A stretch of 35,093 bases of DNA from Planctomycetota bacterium (GTDB lineage: Bacteria > Planctomycetota > Planctomycetia > Pirellulales > UBA1268). Under the pieces are notes generated by a model that ran no database searches, was not told where the DNA came from, and worked only from the letters and a program-made list of their open reading frames with translations. The stretch lies in the NCBI GenBank assembly GCA_018970605.1, contig JAGWWA010000017.1:1-35093 (forward strand), written 5' to 3'. Shown piece by piece: positions 8,822 to 14,264 of the stretch (its first letter is position 1; each line of letters begins with the position of its first letter). Made by a program: the position numbers and the translations under genes.

Positions 8822-9232
8822 TCAAAAGCCTCCCTCGATGACCGCGCCACACTGATGGCAACGGGGCAGGGCCAGCGGCTTGGGCGTGGGCATGTAGCCC
8901 TCCGCGCACAAGGTGTGGAGCCGCGGGAAACACGGCGGCAGCGTGACGCAGCCATGACGGTGGATGTCATGCTTCGCCCGAAGTTGGCCGCAGGGATCCG
9001 CGTGAAACACGCCGCAATGATGGCAGGACGGTCCGCACGCGGGGCCGCTCACGCTGCCATGCCAAGGGGGCTGCTGCACGTTCCGGCACCCGCAGGCGTT
9101 CCCCGACCCATCCGTGGACATCATCGCGGAGTCGTCCGTGACCGTCGTCTCTTGGGCTGTTGCCAGGCCGATCGCGAACAGCGATGGCAGGGCGACGACG
9201 ACGGCGGCGATGATGCGGTAGGGTGAACGCAC
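8822..9232 (-). CDS. Small Cys/His-rich exported protein
   Basis: A 136 aa protein of unknown function. The first 27 residues form a clear Sec signal peptide (RIIAAVVVALPSLFAIGLATAQ) with likely cleavage after ATA. The mature part is rich in Cys and His (CGCRN, CGPSCHHCG, HADPCG, HDIHRHGC, PPCF, HTLC, RCHQCG), which suggests disulfides or bound metal outside the cytoplasm. It ends in a CxxC-type motif, CHQCGAVIEGGF. The start is GTG at 9232, chosen because GGGAG lies about 8 nt upstream and the signal peptide begins immediately. A 12 bp palindrome (9285-9296) lies upstream and could be an operator. I do not recognise a named family; small Cys-rich secreted proteins of this sort recur in planctomycetes. 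Confidence 0.75.
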   Translation of the reverse strand: MRSPYRIIAAVVVALPSLFAIGLATAQETTVTDDSAMMSTDGSGNACGCRNVQQPPWHGSVSGPACGPSCHHCGVFHADPCGQLRAKHDIHRHGCVTLPPCFPRLHTLCAEGYMPTPKPLALPRCHQCGAVIEGGF

Positions 9233-9284
9233 GATGGGATCTCCCGGTAACGTGGTGCAGGCCTCACTGGCCACGCCGCGTTCT

Positions 9285-9296
9285 TCGACCGGTCGA
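9285..9296. promoter_or_regulatory. Palindrome upstream of the Cys-rich gene
   Basis: TCGACCGGTCGA is a perfect 12 bp palindrome about 53 bp upstream of the GTG start at 9232. It lies in the 126 bp gap between two minus-strand genes, a position suited to an operator. Chance occurrence in GC-rich DNA cannot be excluded and no regulator is encoded nearby. Confidence 0.25.
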
Positions 9297-9358
9297 GCCT
9301 GCCGGGATGAACGGCCGCACCGCAAGGACCGGTCGTGACGGTCGGGGCGACCCTGACG

Positions 9359-11764
9359 TCAGTCGAGGGCCACGTCGGTGACGAAGAAGGCCTCCAGGCC
9401 TTCGCGGGTTGCCAGCACGACGTGCCCCCGCTGGCCGTACCGATACCCGCCGATGCCCACCAGCGGCTTGCCGTGCTGGTAGCGGTCAACGACCCTGCCG
9501 TCGGCCCAGGCGACGGTGACGGATCCGTCGGGGGCGGCGATCAGCCACTGCCGCCGCGGCGTGCCGAGCAGGTCGGCCCAGGCCACGGGTTCGATGGGCC
9601 CGTCGCGGTGCACGCCGTCGCCAAGGGGCAACTGCCATGACCGTGCGACGGTGGATGGATCGATGCCAACCGCCTGCTGACGGCCGTTTCGCTCGGAGGC
9701 GATGCCGAGAATGGCCCAGCCACCGGCGTCGGCGACCGGACCAGACGCGACCGCCACGATCGGCGGCTCCGACGTCGGGGCGGAGGCGGCCTGGGTGGCG
9801 GGCTCGGCGACGACTCGCACGATTCGGCCGTTCTCCGTGAAGGCCAGCACCTCGCGGGATGTCGCTCCGGCCAGCGGGGCTCCCATGGCGATGCCAAGCA
9901 CTGGTGTGGCCACACGGTCGTGCCACAGCCGGCGGCCGGTGATCGCGGCCGCCTCGACGCCCGCGGTACCCGTGTAGCCCACCACGATCTCGGGTGCGCC
10001 ATCGCCGTCGAGATCGCCAAGTTCTGCGTCGCTGATCCCATCGTGCGCTGGGCCGCCCGATGCAGGGTAGGTCGTATGCAGTCGCCACGCGTCGTCGAAC
10101 ACGAACACGTGCTGCCCGCCGCGGCGGCCCGCGAGCCACCACCGGCTGCCGTCGTGCCCCAGCGCGGTGCGCAGGAATCCGACGCCCGCATCGGCCGGCA
10201 GGTCGAGCTCGTGTCGGCTGCGTTCCACGCCCTTCGCGTCGAGTTCGACGACCGTTCGCCACCCGTCCAGGGCCACGATCCGTGGCTCAGCCGCGCCATG
10301 GGCCTCGTCGAGACAGACCACATTGCCTGGCAGCGCCACGCCGGCTGCCCGCCAGGCATGCTCCAGCTTGAACCTCACAGGCTGCCGCCGCGGTGCGATC
10401 ACCTGTTCGGGCAACCGCCGTCCGCCGCCGGCGGCGCGGTCGAGGTCGCGGCGATACTCGCGGAGCCGCCGCTCGTGCCGCGCCCGAACGAGGGGTTTCG
10501 TGTCGGTGTCGCGCTCCACGGCGGCGAGCGTCTCGATGATGTCGGCCCTGATCCGAGAGTGGTCACCCACGATCACGTCGGCGATCCGGCCGTCGCGGGC
10601 GACGATCACGGTGGCCGGAAACGACTCCAGGCCGAGCGCCTGGGGCGACACGCCCTGGGGGTCGCGGGCGAGTGTTCCCACGCCGCCGAACTCCGCCAGC
10701 TTCTTGCGGATGTCCGGCAGCGGTTCGTCGTCTGGATCGAGGCTCACCGCGACGTGTCTGACGGCGGGCTGGGCGCCGCGGTGAGTGCGGGCGTAGTCGG
10801 CGACGAAGTCGGCGATGCCTGCGGCGACCTGCGGCAGCGACCTCGCAGCGGGGCCGCACCCCTCGAAAAAGAAGTCGAGGACGAGCGTGGCATCGCCGAT
10901 CGACTCGCGGGTGAGCGGTTCGCCGTCCACCGTCGCCAGCGTGGGCAGGTCGGCCTTCGTGCCGACCCGGGGATGCAGTGGCTGTGGCCGGTCGAGGGGT
11001 TCGAGCCGCGTGACCATCGCCGCCGCGGCCGGCACCTCGAACGCAAACGCCTCAGCCGGTACCTCGGCCTCGAAGGAGGCGTCGGTGAACTCGACCTCGA
11101 CTGCGATCCCCACCGGGGCCCCTGCTTCCCGTGACAGTCCGTCGGCATACGCGGCCGTCGGCACCCGCATTCTCCGCAGGAGTTTTGACGTGCGATCGAT
11201 CCACAGCCCCAGCACGCCGTCGGGCTTCGTGATCTCGAGGTGGGTGCAGTCGTGGCCGTCTACCTGTTCCTTGCCGACGATCCGCGGCGGCGCATCGGAC
11301 TCCGCGACAATCAGTGCGAGCGTGTCGTCGGCGAGCAGGAGCGGCAACTGGGTCGGGCAGCCGGCCTCCCCTTCGGTGAGCGTCGATCGCAGAGCGTCGT
11401 CGCTGAAAATCTGATCGAGTGTGAGTGGCGTCACCACCGGCTCGGAGAGCACCTGCCCGGGCACGGTGCCCACGGCGGCGTAGAGCGTCGTGCCGTCGGT
11501 GACGACACGGGCATCGTAGGCCTCGACGCGAATCCTGTCGGGACGCACGAACGCGACGCGGTACGGATAGGTCTGTTCGGTGGAGGATTCGCCTTGCGTC
11601 TGCCGCACGGTGACGCGGGCGTCGTCGGAATAGCGGTCGGCGGCCCGGTAGGCCTGCCCCATCTCGTCGAGGATCTGCTGGGGATCGTCGCCGCATCCGG
11701 CCAGCAGGAGCGTCACCATGGCGAGCAGGGCGTGTGGCGGCCGGAGCCGATCGAGGCGTTTCAT
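9359..11764 (-). CDS. Lipoprotein: LolA-like, thioredoxin-like and propeller-like regions
   Basis: An 801 aa envelope protein. A lipoprotein signal with lipobox LLAGC (Cys24) anchors it to a membrane. Residues about 25-250 resemble the LolA/DUF2092 lipoprotein-carrier fold (YPYRVAFVRPDRIRVEAY, HDCTHLEITKPDG, LGLWIDRTSKLLRRMRV). Residues about 265-425 form a TlpA/AhpC-type thioredoxin fold with the conserved cis-Pro loop (FPATVIVARDGRI). Its active site reads CGPA (Cys303-Ala306), so the resolving Cys is missing. The remaining 370 residues look like a beta-propeller or FG-GAP region (LGDLDGDGAPEIVVGYTG, Ca-binding DxDGD). The protein may couple redox or lipid handling to an extracellular scaffold, but this is inference. 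The ATG at 11764 is set by the lipoprotein signal; the frame stays open upstream as a shadow of the divergent gene. Confidence 0.85.
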   Translation of the reverse strand: MKRLDRLRPPHALLAMVTLLLAGCGDDPQQILDEMGQAYRAADRYSDDARVTVRQTQGESSTEQTYPYRVAFVRPDRIRVEAYDARVVTDGTTLYAAVGTVPGQVLSEPVVTPLTLDQIFSDDALRSTLTEGEAGCPTQLPLLLADDTLALIVAESDAPPRIVGKEQVDGHDCTHLEITKPDGVLGLWIDRTSKLLRRMRVPTAAYADGLSREAGAPVGIAVEVEFTDASFEAEVPAEAFAFEVPAAAAMVTRLEPLDRPQPLHPRVGTKADLPTLATVDGEPLTRESIGDATLVLDFFFEGCGPAARSLPQVAAGIADFVADYARTHRGAQPAVRHVAVSLDPDDEPLPDIRKKLAEFGGVGTLARDPQGVSPQALGLESFPATVIVARDGRIADVIVGDHSRIRADIIETLAAVERDTDTKPLVRARHERRLREYRRDLDRAAGGGRRLPEQVIAPRRQPVRFKLEHAWRAAGVALPGNVVCLDEAHGAAEPRIVALDGWRTVVELDAKGVERSRHELDLPADAGVGFLRTALGHDGSRWWLAGRRGGQHVFVFDDAWRLHTTYPASGGPAHDGISDAELGDLDGDGAPEIVVGYTGTAGVEAAAITGRRLWHDRVATPVLGIAMGAPLAGATSREVLAFTENGRIVRVVAEPATQAASAPTSEPPIVAVASGPVADAGGWAILGIASERNGRQQAVGIDPSTVARSWQLPLGDGVHRDGPIEPVAWADLLGTPRRQWLIAAPDGSVTVAWADGRVVDRYQHGKPLVGIGGYRYGQRGHVVLATREGLEAFFVTDVALD

Positions 11765-11807
11765 GACGGCATCTTGCGCCAAACCCCGCGTTGCGGGCCA
11801 GATCATT

Positions 11808-11821
11808 CTCCGGCGCCGGAG
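11808..11821. promoter_or_regulatory. 14 bp palindrome in a divergent promoter region
   Basis: CTCCGGCGCCGGAG is a perfect palindrome in the 117 bp gap between the divergent lipoprotein and LarA-like genes. It could be an operator serving both. GC-rich palindromes arise often by chance, so support is weak. No convincing -35/-10 pair was found in this gap. Confidence 0.25.
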
Positions 11822-11881
11822 CAGCGATAAGATGTCGGTTTTCCGCCCCGCCCTCACTCGTCCCCGCCCGCCCCGCCGCCC

Positions 11882-13093
11882 GTGGAAACCATCTCCCTCG
11901 AGTACGGTGCCGACGAGCCGCTCGTGCTCGAATCGCTCGATGGCGGCGCGATGGCGTTCGCCGCGCCCGCAGGCGTCGTCGGTGCCGAGGCGCGAAGCCT
12001 CGTCCTCGAGGCCGTCACGGCACCGCTCCACGGTCCGCCGCTCGCCGCCCACGTGGTGCCCGGCGACCGGGTCGTGATCGCGGTCGCCGGCGATGTCGCG
12101 CAGGCTCCGGCCGCGGTGGATGCCATCCTGGAATGCCTCGTCTCCGCAGGTGTGGCCGAGTCGGACGCGACCGTGCTCGAAGGGCCGGCGCTCGGCTTCA
12201 TGGCGTCGGGCCGGGCGGTCGCGCGGCGGTCGGTTGCCAACGCGGAGGCCTTCGATCCTGCCGTCGATGCGGCCACCTCCTACCTGGCTGCCGACGCGGC
12301 GGGCCGGCCGCTTCATCTCGCCCGCGCGCTCGTCGATGCCGACGTCGTCGTCGCGGTCGGCGAATGGGGCTTCAGCCCCGCGCTCGGTGGCCGGTCGATC
12401 GAGGGTGAGCTCTGGCCGACGTTCGCACGGGCGGAGTGTCGCAGCGACCTGCTCGTGGCCCTCGCCAGGCGGGGTCGGGGCGCCCTGGCCGACTGGAAGA
12501 GCGGCATGCAGGAGATCGCCTGGCAACTTGGCGTGTGTGCGAATCTGCGGCTCGTGCGTGGAGCGAACGCATCGCTCGCCGCGGCCCGGTTTGGCCTTCC
12601 CGACGAGGCGTCGCGTCAGGCCCGCGAGGCCGCGGCGTCCTGGTGTCCTGCGATCGACCCCATCGCCGACCTCGCGGTGGCTTCGCTCTCCGATCCCGAC
12701 GGTGGCTTCGGGGCGATCGCGGCCGCGGCTGCCGCGGCGGCACGGGTCACGAGACCGGGGGGCACGATCTGCATCGCGTGCCGCGACATCGAGCCGGCCG
12801 GCGTCATCTTGACCCGCTGGCGGCAGGGTGCGCCGCTCGAGGGGCTCTTGCACGAGGCGGTCGCGACGCACGATCCGGTGTTGATTGCCGATGCCCTGCT
12901 CACGCGGCTCTTCGCCCGGGCGATCGACGACCGTCGGCTGGTTCTCCTCTCGAACCTCAGCGAGGAGGTGGTTGAGGAACTCGAGTTCGGGTACGCGGCG
13001 AGTCCCGAGGTTGTGGAGCGGCTGGCCCACCGGGCGGAGCGGCTCGCGGTGCTCGCCGAGGCCGATCGCTGCTTCCCAAAGACGACCGACTGA
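11882..13093 (+). CDS. Degenerate LarA/DUF2088-like protein
   Basis: A 403 aa protein resembling the lactate racemase LarA (DUF2088) family. The similarity is in the N-terminal Rossmann-like segment (PGDRVVIAVAGDVAQAP, then AVDAILECLVSAGV) and in the segment DVVVAVGEWGFSPALGGRS, where LarA has its GFSGGxK signature. The family's GTHR-type motif and the His residues that serve the nickel-pincer cofactor are not visible: the first place reads EGPALGF, and the GFS segment has no neighbouring His or Lys. Racemase activity is therefore unlikely and the role is unknown. The start is GTG at 11882 with no Shine-Dalgarno; an earlier ATG at 11833 is out of frame. It is followed by a convergent intergenic hairpin repeat. 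Confidence 0.65.
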   Translation: METISLEYGADEPLVLESLDGGAMAFAAPAGVVGAEARSLVLEAVTAPLHGPPLAAHVVPGDRVVIAVAGDVAQAPAAVDAILECLVSAGVAESDATVLEGPALGFMASGRAVARRSVANAEAFDPAVDAATSYLAADAAGRPLHLARALVDADVVVAVGEWGFSPALGGRSIEGELWPTFARAECRSDLLVALARRGRGALADWKSGMQEIAWQLGVCANLRLVRGANASLAAARFGLPDEASRQAREAAASWCPAIDPIADLAVASLSDPDGGFGAIAAAAAAAARVTRPGGTICIACRDIEPAGVILTRWRQGAPLEGLLHEAVATHDPVLIADALLTRLFARAIDDRRLVLLSNLSEEVVEELEFGYAASPEVVERLAHRAERLAVLAEADRCFPKTTD

Positions 13094-13319: not shown

Positions 13320-14264
13320 TCACCGTTGCGGGGTCACCCGGTGCCGCAGCGCATGCCTCGACCGTGGTCCCCAAACGCGCGAATCGACGCTGCCGGTCGG
13401 GAAGTCGCCGAGCACGAGGAATGAGTCTGCGTCGAGCTGCCAGCTGGTGGGCTCGTCAGACCTCGGGCGATAGTGGATGTCGCGCCAGGCGTCGATTCGT
13501 TCCACGTTTCCTCCCGCGTTCACGCTCGCCGAGCAGCCGGCCTCCGTGGGCCCAGCGACGCCCGGTGGCCATGGGACCGCGACCGTCCATGCCGCCGGCG
13601 TGCGCATGGGCAGGACGCTGCGGCGGTCGTGTGCGAGCGGTGGTTCGCGAACGAACCAGGCGACCGCGACGAGCCGGCCATCAAGGTGGCCAGCGATCAG
13701 CTGGCAGTGACCTCCTGCGGGGAGCTCCCACGCGAGCCGGGCATCCCCTACCGCAATCTGGGCTCGCGAGCCGTCTGGGCCGGCGGTGATGACAGCCGCG
13801 ATTCCCACATCGCGAACGGACTCGAGCGAGCGGTTCACCTCGGTGGCAAACGTGGCGTCGTCGAGCACCTCGGCGGGCGGCATCCGCGCGTGGCCCTCAT
13901 GGTGCTCGATCGGCACGGCGACAGGCAGCGCCACCTCCGCGAGCACCGCCGGGCTCTTCAGCACGACGTCACCCGCCACGAGCAGGTCGCCGTCGCGGAT
14001 CGCCACGTCCTCGCCGGGCAGACCGACCACGCGCTTGATCGTGGCCGCGCCATCGCCGGCGTCGACGATCCACCGCTCGTACCGTCGCGGCGTGCGGCCG
14101 CGATCGATGAGCGGGAGCCAGCCCGTGGCCACGACGTCTCCCGGCATCAGGCCCGGCGCCATCGAGACCCCGTCGATCTCGTATCGAGCTGGAGCGGCGA
14201 CAACGATCACCACTGCCGCCACGAGGGCGACCATCGCGACCACGACGCCCCGGCGGACGCTCAC
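13320..14264 (-). CDS. Signal peptidase I-like membrane protease (S26)
   Basis: A 314 aa protein with one N-terminal membrane anchor (residues 6-24) followed by a periplasmic S26 fold. The catalytic Ser is in GVSMAPGLMPGDVV (Ser34), the general-base Lys in IKRVVGLPGEDV (Lys77), and box E reads LVLGDFPTGSVDSRVWG near 285-300. The usual Asn after GD in box E is replaced by Phe, and a long insert of about 180 residues separates the Lys from box E, so this is a divergent paralogue rather than the housekeeping enzyme. Start is GTG at 14264, 4 nt after the stop of the oxidoreductase gene, so it is co-transcribed with it. No functional link to sugar metabolism is evident. Its substrate may be a subset of exported proteins. 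Confidence 0.8.
   Translation of the reverse strand: MSVRRGVVVAMVALVAAVVIVVAAPARYEIDGVSMAPGLMPGDVVATGWLPLIDRGRTPRRYERWIVDAGDGAATIKRVVGLPGEDVAIRDGDLLVAGDVVLKSPAVLAEVALPVAVPIEHHEGHARMPPAEVLDDATFATEVNRSLESVRDVGIAAVITAGPDGSRAQIAVGDARLAWELPAGGHCQLIAGHLDGRLVAVAWFVREPPLAHDRRSVLPMRTPAAWTVAVPWPPGVAGPTEAGCSASVNAGGNVERIDAWRDIHYRPRSDEPTSWQLDADSFLVLGDFPTGSVDSRVWGPRSRHALRHRVTPQR

Follow-up and report, generated by a model that had tools for sequence, protein, structure and literature searches.

A thioredoxin (Trx) domain that lacks its second active-site cysteine raises the question of what remains of its function, and whether the domain still matters to the protein that carries it. The case considered here lies in a 35,093-nucleotide stretch of planctomycete DNA (the window), part of an incomplete genome (76%, 164 contigs), where one gene encodes a chain with a Trx domain between a LolA-like domain and a β-propeller (Table 1). 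The motif in the window's Trx domain is not CxxC. The original prediction, that Cys303 is kept with Ala at the position of the second cysteine and that the cis-Pro loop is intact, was confirmed in the sequence. A reading of the same interval on the plus strand was rejected on account of stops in frame. The gene is real and not a chance reading frame, since a second genome (L031) has a 79% identical orthologue and every domain is under purifying selection (dN/dS 0.11-0.34 in 6 of 6 pairs tested). The L031 lipoprotein also shares neighbour genes with the window; the records of L031 and L044 are titled Candidatus Kuenenia stuttgartiensis, and these labels look wrong.

The N-terminus has the signature of a lipoprotein, a signal peptide with the lipobox LLLAGC and the expected Cys24, read by eye rather than with a dedicated predictor. 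The protein is accordingly predicted to be lipid-anchored at the bacterial envelope; we infer its lipidation and envelope side.

Table 1. Features of the lipoprotein gene and its surroundings; positions are those of the window, except in the last three rows, where they belong to the locus named.
Feature	Positions	Strand	Basis or remark
Three-domain lipoprotein gene, 801 aa, stop included	9359..11764	-	Complete ORF, ATG to stop
Signal peptide, residues 1-24, lipobox LAGC	11693..11764	-	Sequence; lipobox-type N-termini in many orthologues
Lipobox Cys24	11693-11695	-	LLLAGC read from sequence
LolA-like / DUF2092 domain, residues 29-251	11012..11680	-	Pfam, AF2 model, fold search
Cys136	11357..11359	-	Among 99 rows, window's own family only
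Cys173, LolA-like domain	11246..11248	-	Kept in 96/99 unique proteins
ResA/TlpA-like thioredoxin domain, about residues 264-420	10505..10975	-	Profile search, model
Active-site position Cys303-Gly-Pro-Ala306	10847..10858	-	Sequence, alignment
cis-Pro position Pro383	10616..10618	-	Alignment
Predicted helical linker, residues 423-447	10424..10498	-	AF2 model
Beta-propeller domain, residues 460-800	9365..10387	-	Fold search; weak FG-GAP matches
Cys484, propeller start	10313..10315	-	Window's family and one other row, L133
Small Cys/His-rich protein, likely signal peptide, directly downstream	8822-9325	-	No Pfam match
LarA-like gene, divergent	11882-13093	+	NCBIfam LarAH6 1.7e-5, Pfam Lar_N 0.01, both under cut-off
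Signal peptidase I-like gene	13320-14264	-	TIGR02227, 53.8 bits vs cut-off 47, matched at 9-104
Natural deletion form, L044	1201-2286		Signal peptide upstream of 1201
Natural deletion form, L047	3539-4735		
Natural deletion form, L076	6001-7755		

Predicted structures, searched by fold, and sequence profiles between them supported all three domains and bore out the proposed order of LolA-like domain, Trx and propeller. In the single sequence, Pfam recognized DUF2092 (E 4.3e-11, 43 bits against a cut-off of 21.2), a family also matched by 17 of 18 relatives at E≤0.01; Redoxin (residues 275-403) and FG-GAP (548-599) were sub-threshold. The AF2 model of the whole protein, made from an 18-row alignment, had a mean pLDDT of 84.6 and a pTM of 0.48, so that the single domains are modelled with confidence but their mutual arrangement is not. 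When the LolA-like domain was modelled separately (AF2, pLDDT 90.8), its best solved match was Bacteroides LolA (Z 15.1, rmsd 3.9, 177 residues aligned), and the expectation that the N-terminal part would fold as LolA held in the model. RseB and MucB were matched at a Z of about 12-13, and LprG/LppX at about 10. The sequence profile of this domain had no match in the PDB at E≤1. The relation between DUF2092 and LolA is already in print (PMC4520260). The DUF2092 match and the LolA fold are common to these proteins and the window's domain, but the latter is built into a chain with a lipobox, whereas a carrier of the LolA type is soluble and free.

The Trx region was weak in the single sequence and fell under the Pfam cut-off. 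The family profile, built from 18 relatives, matched ResA in the PDB (E 8.3e-22) and 258 PDB sequences in all at E≤0.001; SOQ1, DipZ and NHLRC2 were also matched, more weakly than ResA. By profile, the domain belongs with the periplasmic thioredoxins of the ResA/TlpA/DsbE type, with which it has the cis-Pro in common; it differs from them in the replacement of the second active-site cysteine by alanine and in being embedded in a three-domain lipoprotein. The best match of the propeller was a chain of the SSU processome (Z 26.4, rmsd 3.0, 306 residues), and named WD-repeat structures (4nsx, 2h13 and 4v0n) gave a Z of 24-25. A Foldseek search with the whole model ranked 7djk first (E 4.7e-13), a designed propeller second and 6gc1 third (E 7.3e-12). 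The first of these is SOQ1, named as such in the Trx-profile search of the PDB, and 6gc1 is NHLRC2.

The combination had been regarded as unusual, which proved wrong for the order, where 232 of 296 sampled genomes matched the three-domain profile at E≤1e-20, some of them with shorter LolA-Trx matches. The sample is a partial draw from the order, and the long matches were fetched from its list, the two-domain ones being left out. Among close genomes, 41 of 60 matched the protein at E≤0.001, some in the Trx region only. The phylum sample gave 10 matches in 294 genomes at E≤1e-30, a threshold that would miss weaker full-length relatives outside the order. Three of the ten were near full profile length; they all belong to the window's order, and the window's genome is among them. 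The other seven covered the LolA-Trx part, one of these also being of the order. Within the genus, a strong copy (E below 1e-200) was present in 10 of 22 genomes, the window's included, one copy (L009) being cut by a contig end. The other 12 had none or weak partial matches, and 7 of these genomes are listed as at least 90% complete. The lipoprotein family is thus common throughout one order of planctomycetes. A one-off fusion or an assembly accident was rejected, because the architecture recurs in many genomes. No description of the architecture was found in the literature searched, which lay mostly outside subscription journals, and nothing in it joined Planctomycetes with DUF2092.

The state of the active site was read in 99 unique proteins. 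From 134 sources, 29 were removed as repeats, their last 300 residues being found within another row, to give 105 rows, and two propeller-only rows (L044 and L047) and four contig-edge fragments (L050-L053) were then left out; sequences from other phyla with the Trx region only (L054-L060) did not enter the counts. CxxC was found in 59 proteins, the first Cys only in 7, the second Cys only in 12 and neither in 17, while the domain was absent from 4. The cis-Pro was kept in 93 of the 95 rows with the domain and in all 7 unique members of the window's clade. Conservation of the loss of the second cysteine, one of the points on which the original prediction was to be judged, depends on the scale: it held in the window's clade, with a lone first Cys in 9 of 10 genus copies (the tenth, L011, has CEPC), and failed order-wide, where homologues mostly have CxxC (59/99, or 59/95 of those with the domain). 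Family-wide conservation of the loss was rejected, CxxC being the commonest state across the order. Codon 303 was TGC in 10 of 10 genus copies and codon 306 was GCx or TCx in the nine lone-Cys loci; a sequencing error was rejected as the source of the loss of Cys306, since Ala or Ser stands there in nine genus loci.

On a tree made with FastTree only, from which the Trx columns were excluded (midpoint root for drawing; L170 on a long branch), the first-Cys-only proteins formed a single clade of 7 rows with one change and a support of 86 (100 for a six-row part). The clade holds the window and is surrounded by CxxC relatives, and Cys-x-x-Ala/Ser was found nowhere else among the 99 unique proteins. 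In the window's genus, Ser or Ala took the place of the second Cys in a single event; across the order the site was eroded many times. The label CxxC or not changed 17 times on the tree, with at least 8 changes forced by the starred branches. The second-Cys-only state, the reverse of the window's case, accounted for 9 changes and went with a faster Trx domain (L068, L079, L116, L129, L139, L142, L145, L148, L150, L153, L156 and L170).

With Cys306 lost, the domain cannot close a CxxC disulfide of its own and so is no ordinary dithiol reductase; ordinary dithiol chemistry is unlikely, and is excluded chemically unless another cysteine resolves. The reading that we tentatively prefer is that the Trx domain is a natural mixed-disulfide holder, which an external thiol would resolve, in a lipoprotein built around a propeller and with LolA-like and Trx as accessory domains. 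That lone-Cys TlpA domains can serve as mixed-disulfide holdases or isomerases had been pointed out at the outset. The pattern expected of a natural trap, with the first cysteine kept, the second lost and the state common to close relatives, was found in the genus copies. The retention of Cys303 and of the cis-Pro, the single loss and the purifying selection speak for a trap. Against it, the lone-Cys state arose one time only, from which repeatability cannot be judged, many relatives live without an active-site cysteine or without the Trx domain, and more than half of the genus genomes (12/22) have no strong copy.

Nearly as likely is that the Trx domain is a vestige, dead in redox terms and left as a spacer from the LolA-like domain to the propeller. 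Cys303 would then be a leftover, and the domain would be on its way to the states of other lineages with no Cys or no domain. Several observations agree with this, 1) 29 of the 99 proteins are without the first Cys though the domain is present, 4 have no domain and two more are propeller only, 2) the CxxC label changes often on the tree, and 3) the Trx domain of the lone-Cys clade evolves faster than its LolA-like domain (ratio 1.51). Others do not, for the first Cys was kept in 9 of 9 clade loci along with the cis-Pro, dN/dS in the domain was 0.16-0.33, and in other lineages the first Cys is the one more often lost (12 second-only rows versus one first-only clade).

The rate of the Trx domain was compared by per-domain branch lengths on a fixed topology, with 13 and 10 branches and three dN/dS pairs each. 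The dN/dS values were 0.16, 0.23 and 0.33 for lone-Cys pairs and 0.24, 0.23 and 0.17 for CxxC pairs from within the family. With the mean of the LolA-like domain and the propeller as the yardstick, the Trx rate outside the family was 0.93 for CxxC, 1.29 for second-Cys-only and 1.41 for neither, and inside the family 1.08 for the lone-Cys clade and 1.19 for its CxxC sisters. Relative to the propeller, it was 0.84 (0.69-1.13) in the clade and 1.13 (0.98-1.35) in the sisters, so that neither yardstick showed a speed-up over the CxxC sisters, contrary to what a vestigial domain would suggest. Relative to the LolA-like domain, the clade's 1.51 (1.12-1.99) stood against 1.26 (0.83-1.92) in the sisters, with overlapping intervals; the value given for CxxC proteins outside the family was 0.93. 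The LolA and propeller yardsticks differ, and the answer on decay consequently depends on the yardstick. The clade's Trx domain may be mildly relaxed; in this family the domain runs rather fast even with CxxC. From this small sample we conclude that no further relaxation can be detected after Cys306 was lost, in contrast to the losses in other lineages.

The Trx domain is not the only part of the chain that can be missing. L044 and L047 have the lipoprotein signal joined straight to the propeller, with neither LolA nor Trx, while L076 has LolA and propeller without Trx; three proteins outside the window's clade (L078, L168 and L169) also lack Trx. The deletion forms come from draft contigs, and each rests on its own assembly. 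The best explanation is that the propeller is the constant part of the family and that LolA and Trx are dispensable cassettes.

Besides Cys24, four cysteines are left in the mature chain (136, 173, 303 and 484), and Cys303 might be bonded within the chain to one of the others, either as a new resolving cysteine or as an inter-domain lock. Such a disulfide seems rather improbable. Its appeal is that, among the 99 rows, Cys136 occurs in the window's family alone and Cys484 in that family and L133, that L041, the sole family row with the Trx domain but no Cys484, has kept CGPC intact, and that L076, which has LolA but no Trx, lacks Cys136. Both cysteines would be older than the loss of Cys306, judging from their presence in the CxxC sisters. 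However, Cys484 was kept where the Trx domain or its cysteines are missing (L040, L044, L047 and L076), Cys136 was kept in L040, Cys173 was found in 96 of 99 rows irrespective of the Trx state, and the pTM of the model does not fix the arrangement of the domains. None of the three cysteines comes or goes with Cys306 across the 99 rows. Cys173 was the one cysteine seen in the LolA-like domain of some relatives (e.g. L014 and L017).

Least probable is a one-Cys redox sensor, in which oxidants would sulfenylate or thiolate Cys303 and the propeller would relay the signal in an RseB-like manner: the LolA-like domain resembles RseB and MucB as well as LolA and Pfam AhpC-TSA was matched by 12 of 18 family members, but those matches may be superfamily-wide, no RseA or sigma-factor gene was recognized among the neighbouring frames scanned (18 against Pfam, 5 against NCBIfam), and a peroxiredoxin-type motif was not noticed near Cys303.

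The neighbouring genes were compared in the same loci. Across the order, 62 of 99 loci had a similar divergent LarA-like gene next to that of the lipoprotein, with every Trx state represented, and no dependence on that state was seen. The signal peptidase I-like gene was also near the lipoprotein in several loci of the family. A stretch upstream of the start codon (about 11765-11830) is alike in several relatives, with RRMxWP...QDAxM in frame, and is perhaps a promoter or a leader. The downstream Cys-rich protein had the pattern CGCR...PPWH...CFPRLH...PRCHQCGA, whole or in part, in 12 of 16 aligned rows; the remaining four (L042, L044, L051 and L076) were out of register, and the pattern was incomplete in some other rows. 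Of the 99 loci, 14 had a member of the Cys-rich cluster next to the lipoprotein gene, a count from which short flanks may hide others; the Cys-rich protein was seen in loci of the window's family. No dependence of its presence on the Trx state was seen, one of the 14 loci having no Trx cysteine and another no Trx domain.

A reductive route exists in the genus, since DsbD_TM was found in 20 of 22 genomes, though not in the window's own incomplete one. The window's genome has five other Trx-profile matches, and the two whose sites were read show CPPC. VKOR was rejected as an oxidase partner, as it was over the cut-off in none of the 22 genus genomes (one sub-threshold match).

If the protein is a mixed-disulfide holder, Cys303 would capture the thiol or disulfide of an exported client next to the propeller, and an outside thiol would release the client; a TlpA-like protein with CPPC that receives its electrons from the genus's DsbD-type transporter could be the source of that thiol. 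In the family in general, the pocket of the LolA-like domain would accommodate an acyl chain or some other hydrophobic client. A fuller version, which we consider unlikely, is a stable covalent trap that arose once, in the window's genus, a bacterial counterpart of ERp44 and TMX5. In it, a client would be bound by its lipid or hydrophobic portion in the LolA-like pocket and by its thiol in the lone-Cys Trx domain, both presented on the propeller, with the downstream Cys-rich protein possibly as the client. Of the lipid- or heme-related role once proposed, nothing in the analysis points to heme, and a lipid-related role would have its basis in the LolA-like fold.

TMX5 and ERp44, the latter also with the motif CRFS, resemble the window's clade in keeping only the N-terminal active-site cysteine; they are eukaryotic ER proteins of the PDI family, whereas the window protein is a predicted lipoprotein with a TlpA-like domain. 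TMX5 is reported to trap its clients as mixed disulfides, with an external thiol presumed to resolve them, a precedent for lone-Cys trapping at a CRFS thioredoxin-type site (PMC11443168).

Human NHLRC2 and plant SOQ1 have, like the window protein, a Trx-like domain directly before a propeller. Theirs is a six-bladed NHL propeller; the best matches of the window protein's propeller include WD-repeat structures. With an rmsd of about 18-20 across Trx domain and propeller together, the two domains are not arranged alike in these structures and in the window model. In the NHLRC2 paper (PMC6107167), the motif is CC(I/V)NC (CCINC), against CGPA here and absent from the family rows inspected; no LolA-like domain is named for NHLRC2, unlike the window protein; NHLRC2 had no activity in an insulin reduction assay; and plastid lipocalin is named as a potential target of SOQ1. 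NHLRC2 shows that a pair of Trx and propeller can be essential without ordinary turnover in that assay. The lipocalin makes a suggestive counterpart of the LolA-like domain fused here, though it is no evidence that the proteins share a role.

The analysis thus brings up a widespread planctomycete lipoprotein whose domains recall the Trx and propeller of NHLRC2 and SOQ1, with a lipid-carrier-like domain fused on. The family is a natural series, in related genomes, at one Trx site, with CxxC, a lone first cysteine, a lone second cysteine, neither cysteine, and the domain gone, and because the series lies in one fixed architecture, it makes testable what remains of a thioredoxin after dithiol catalysis has been lost.
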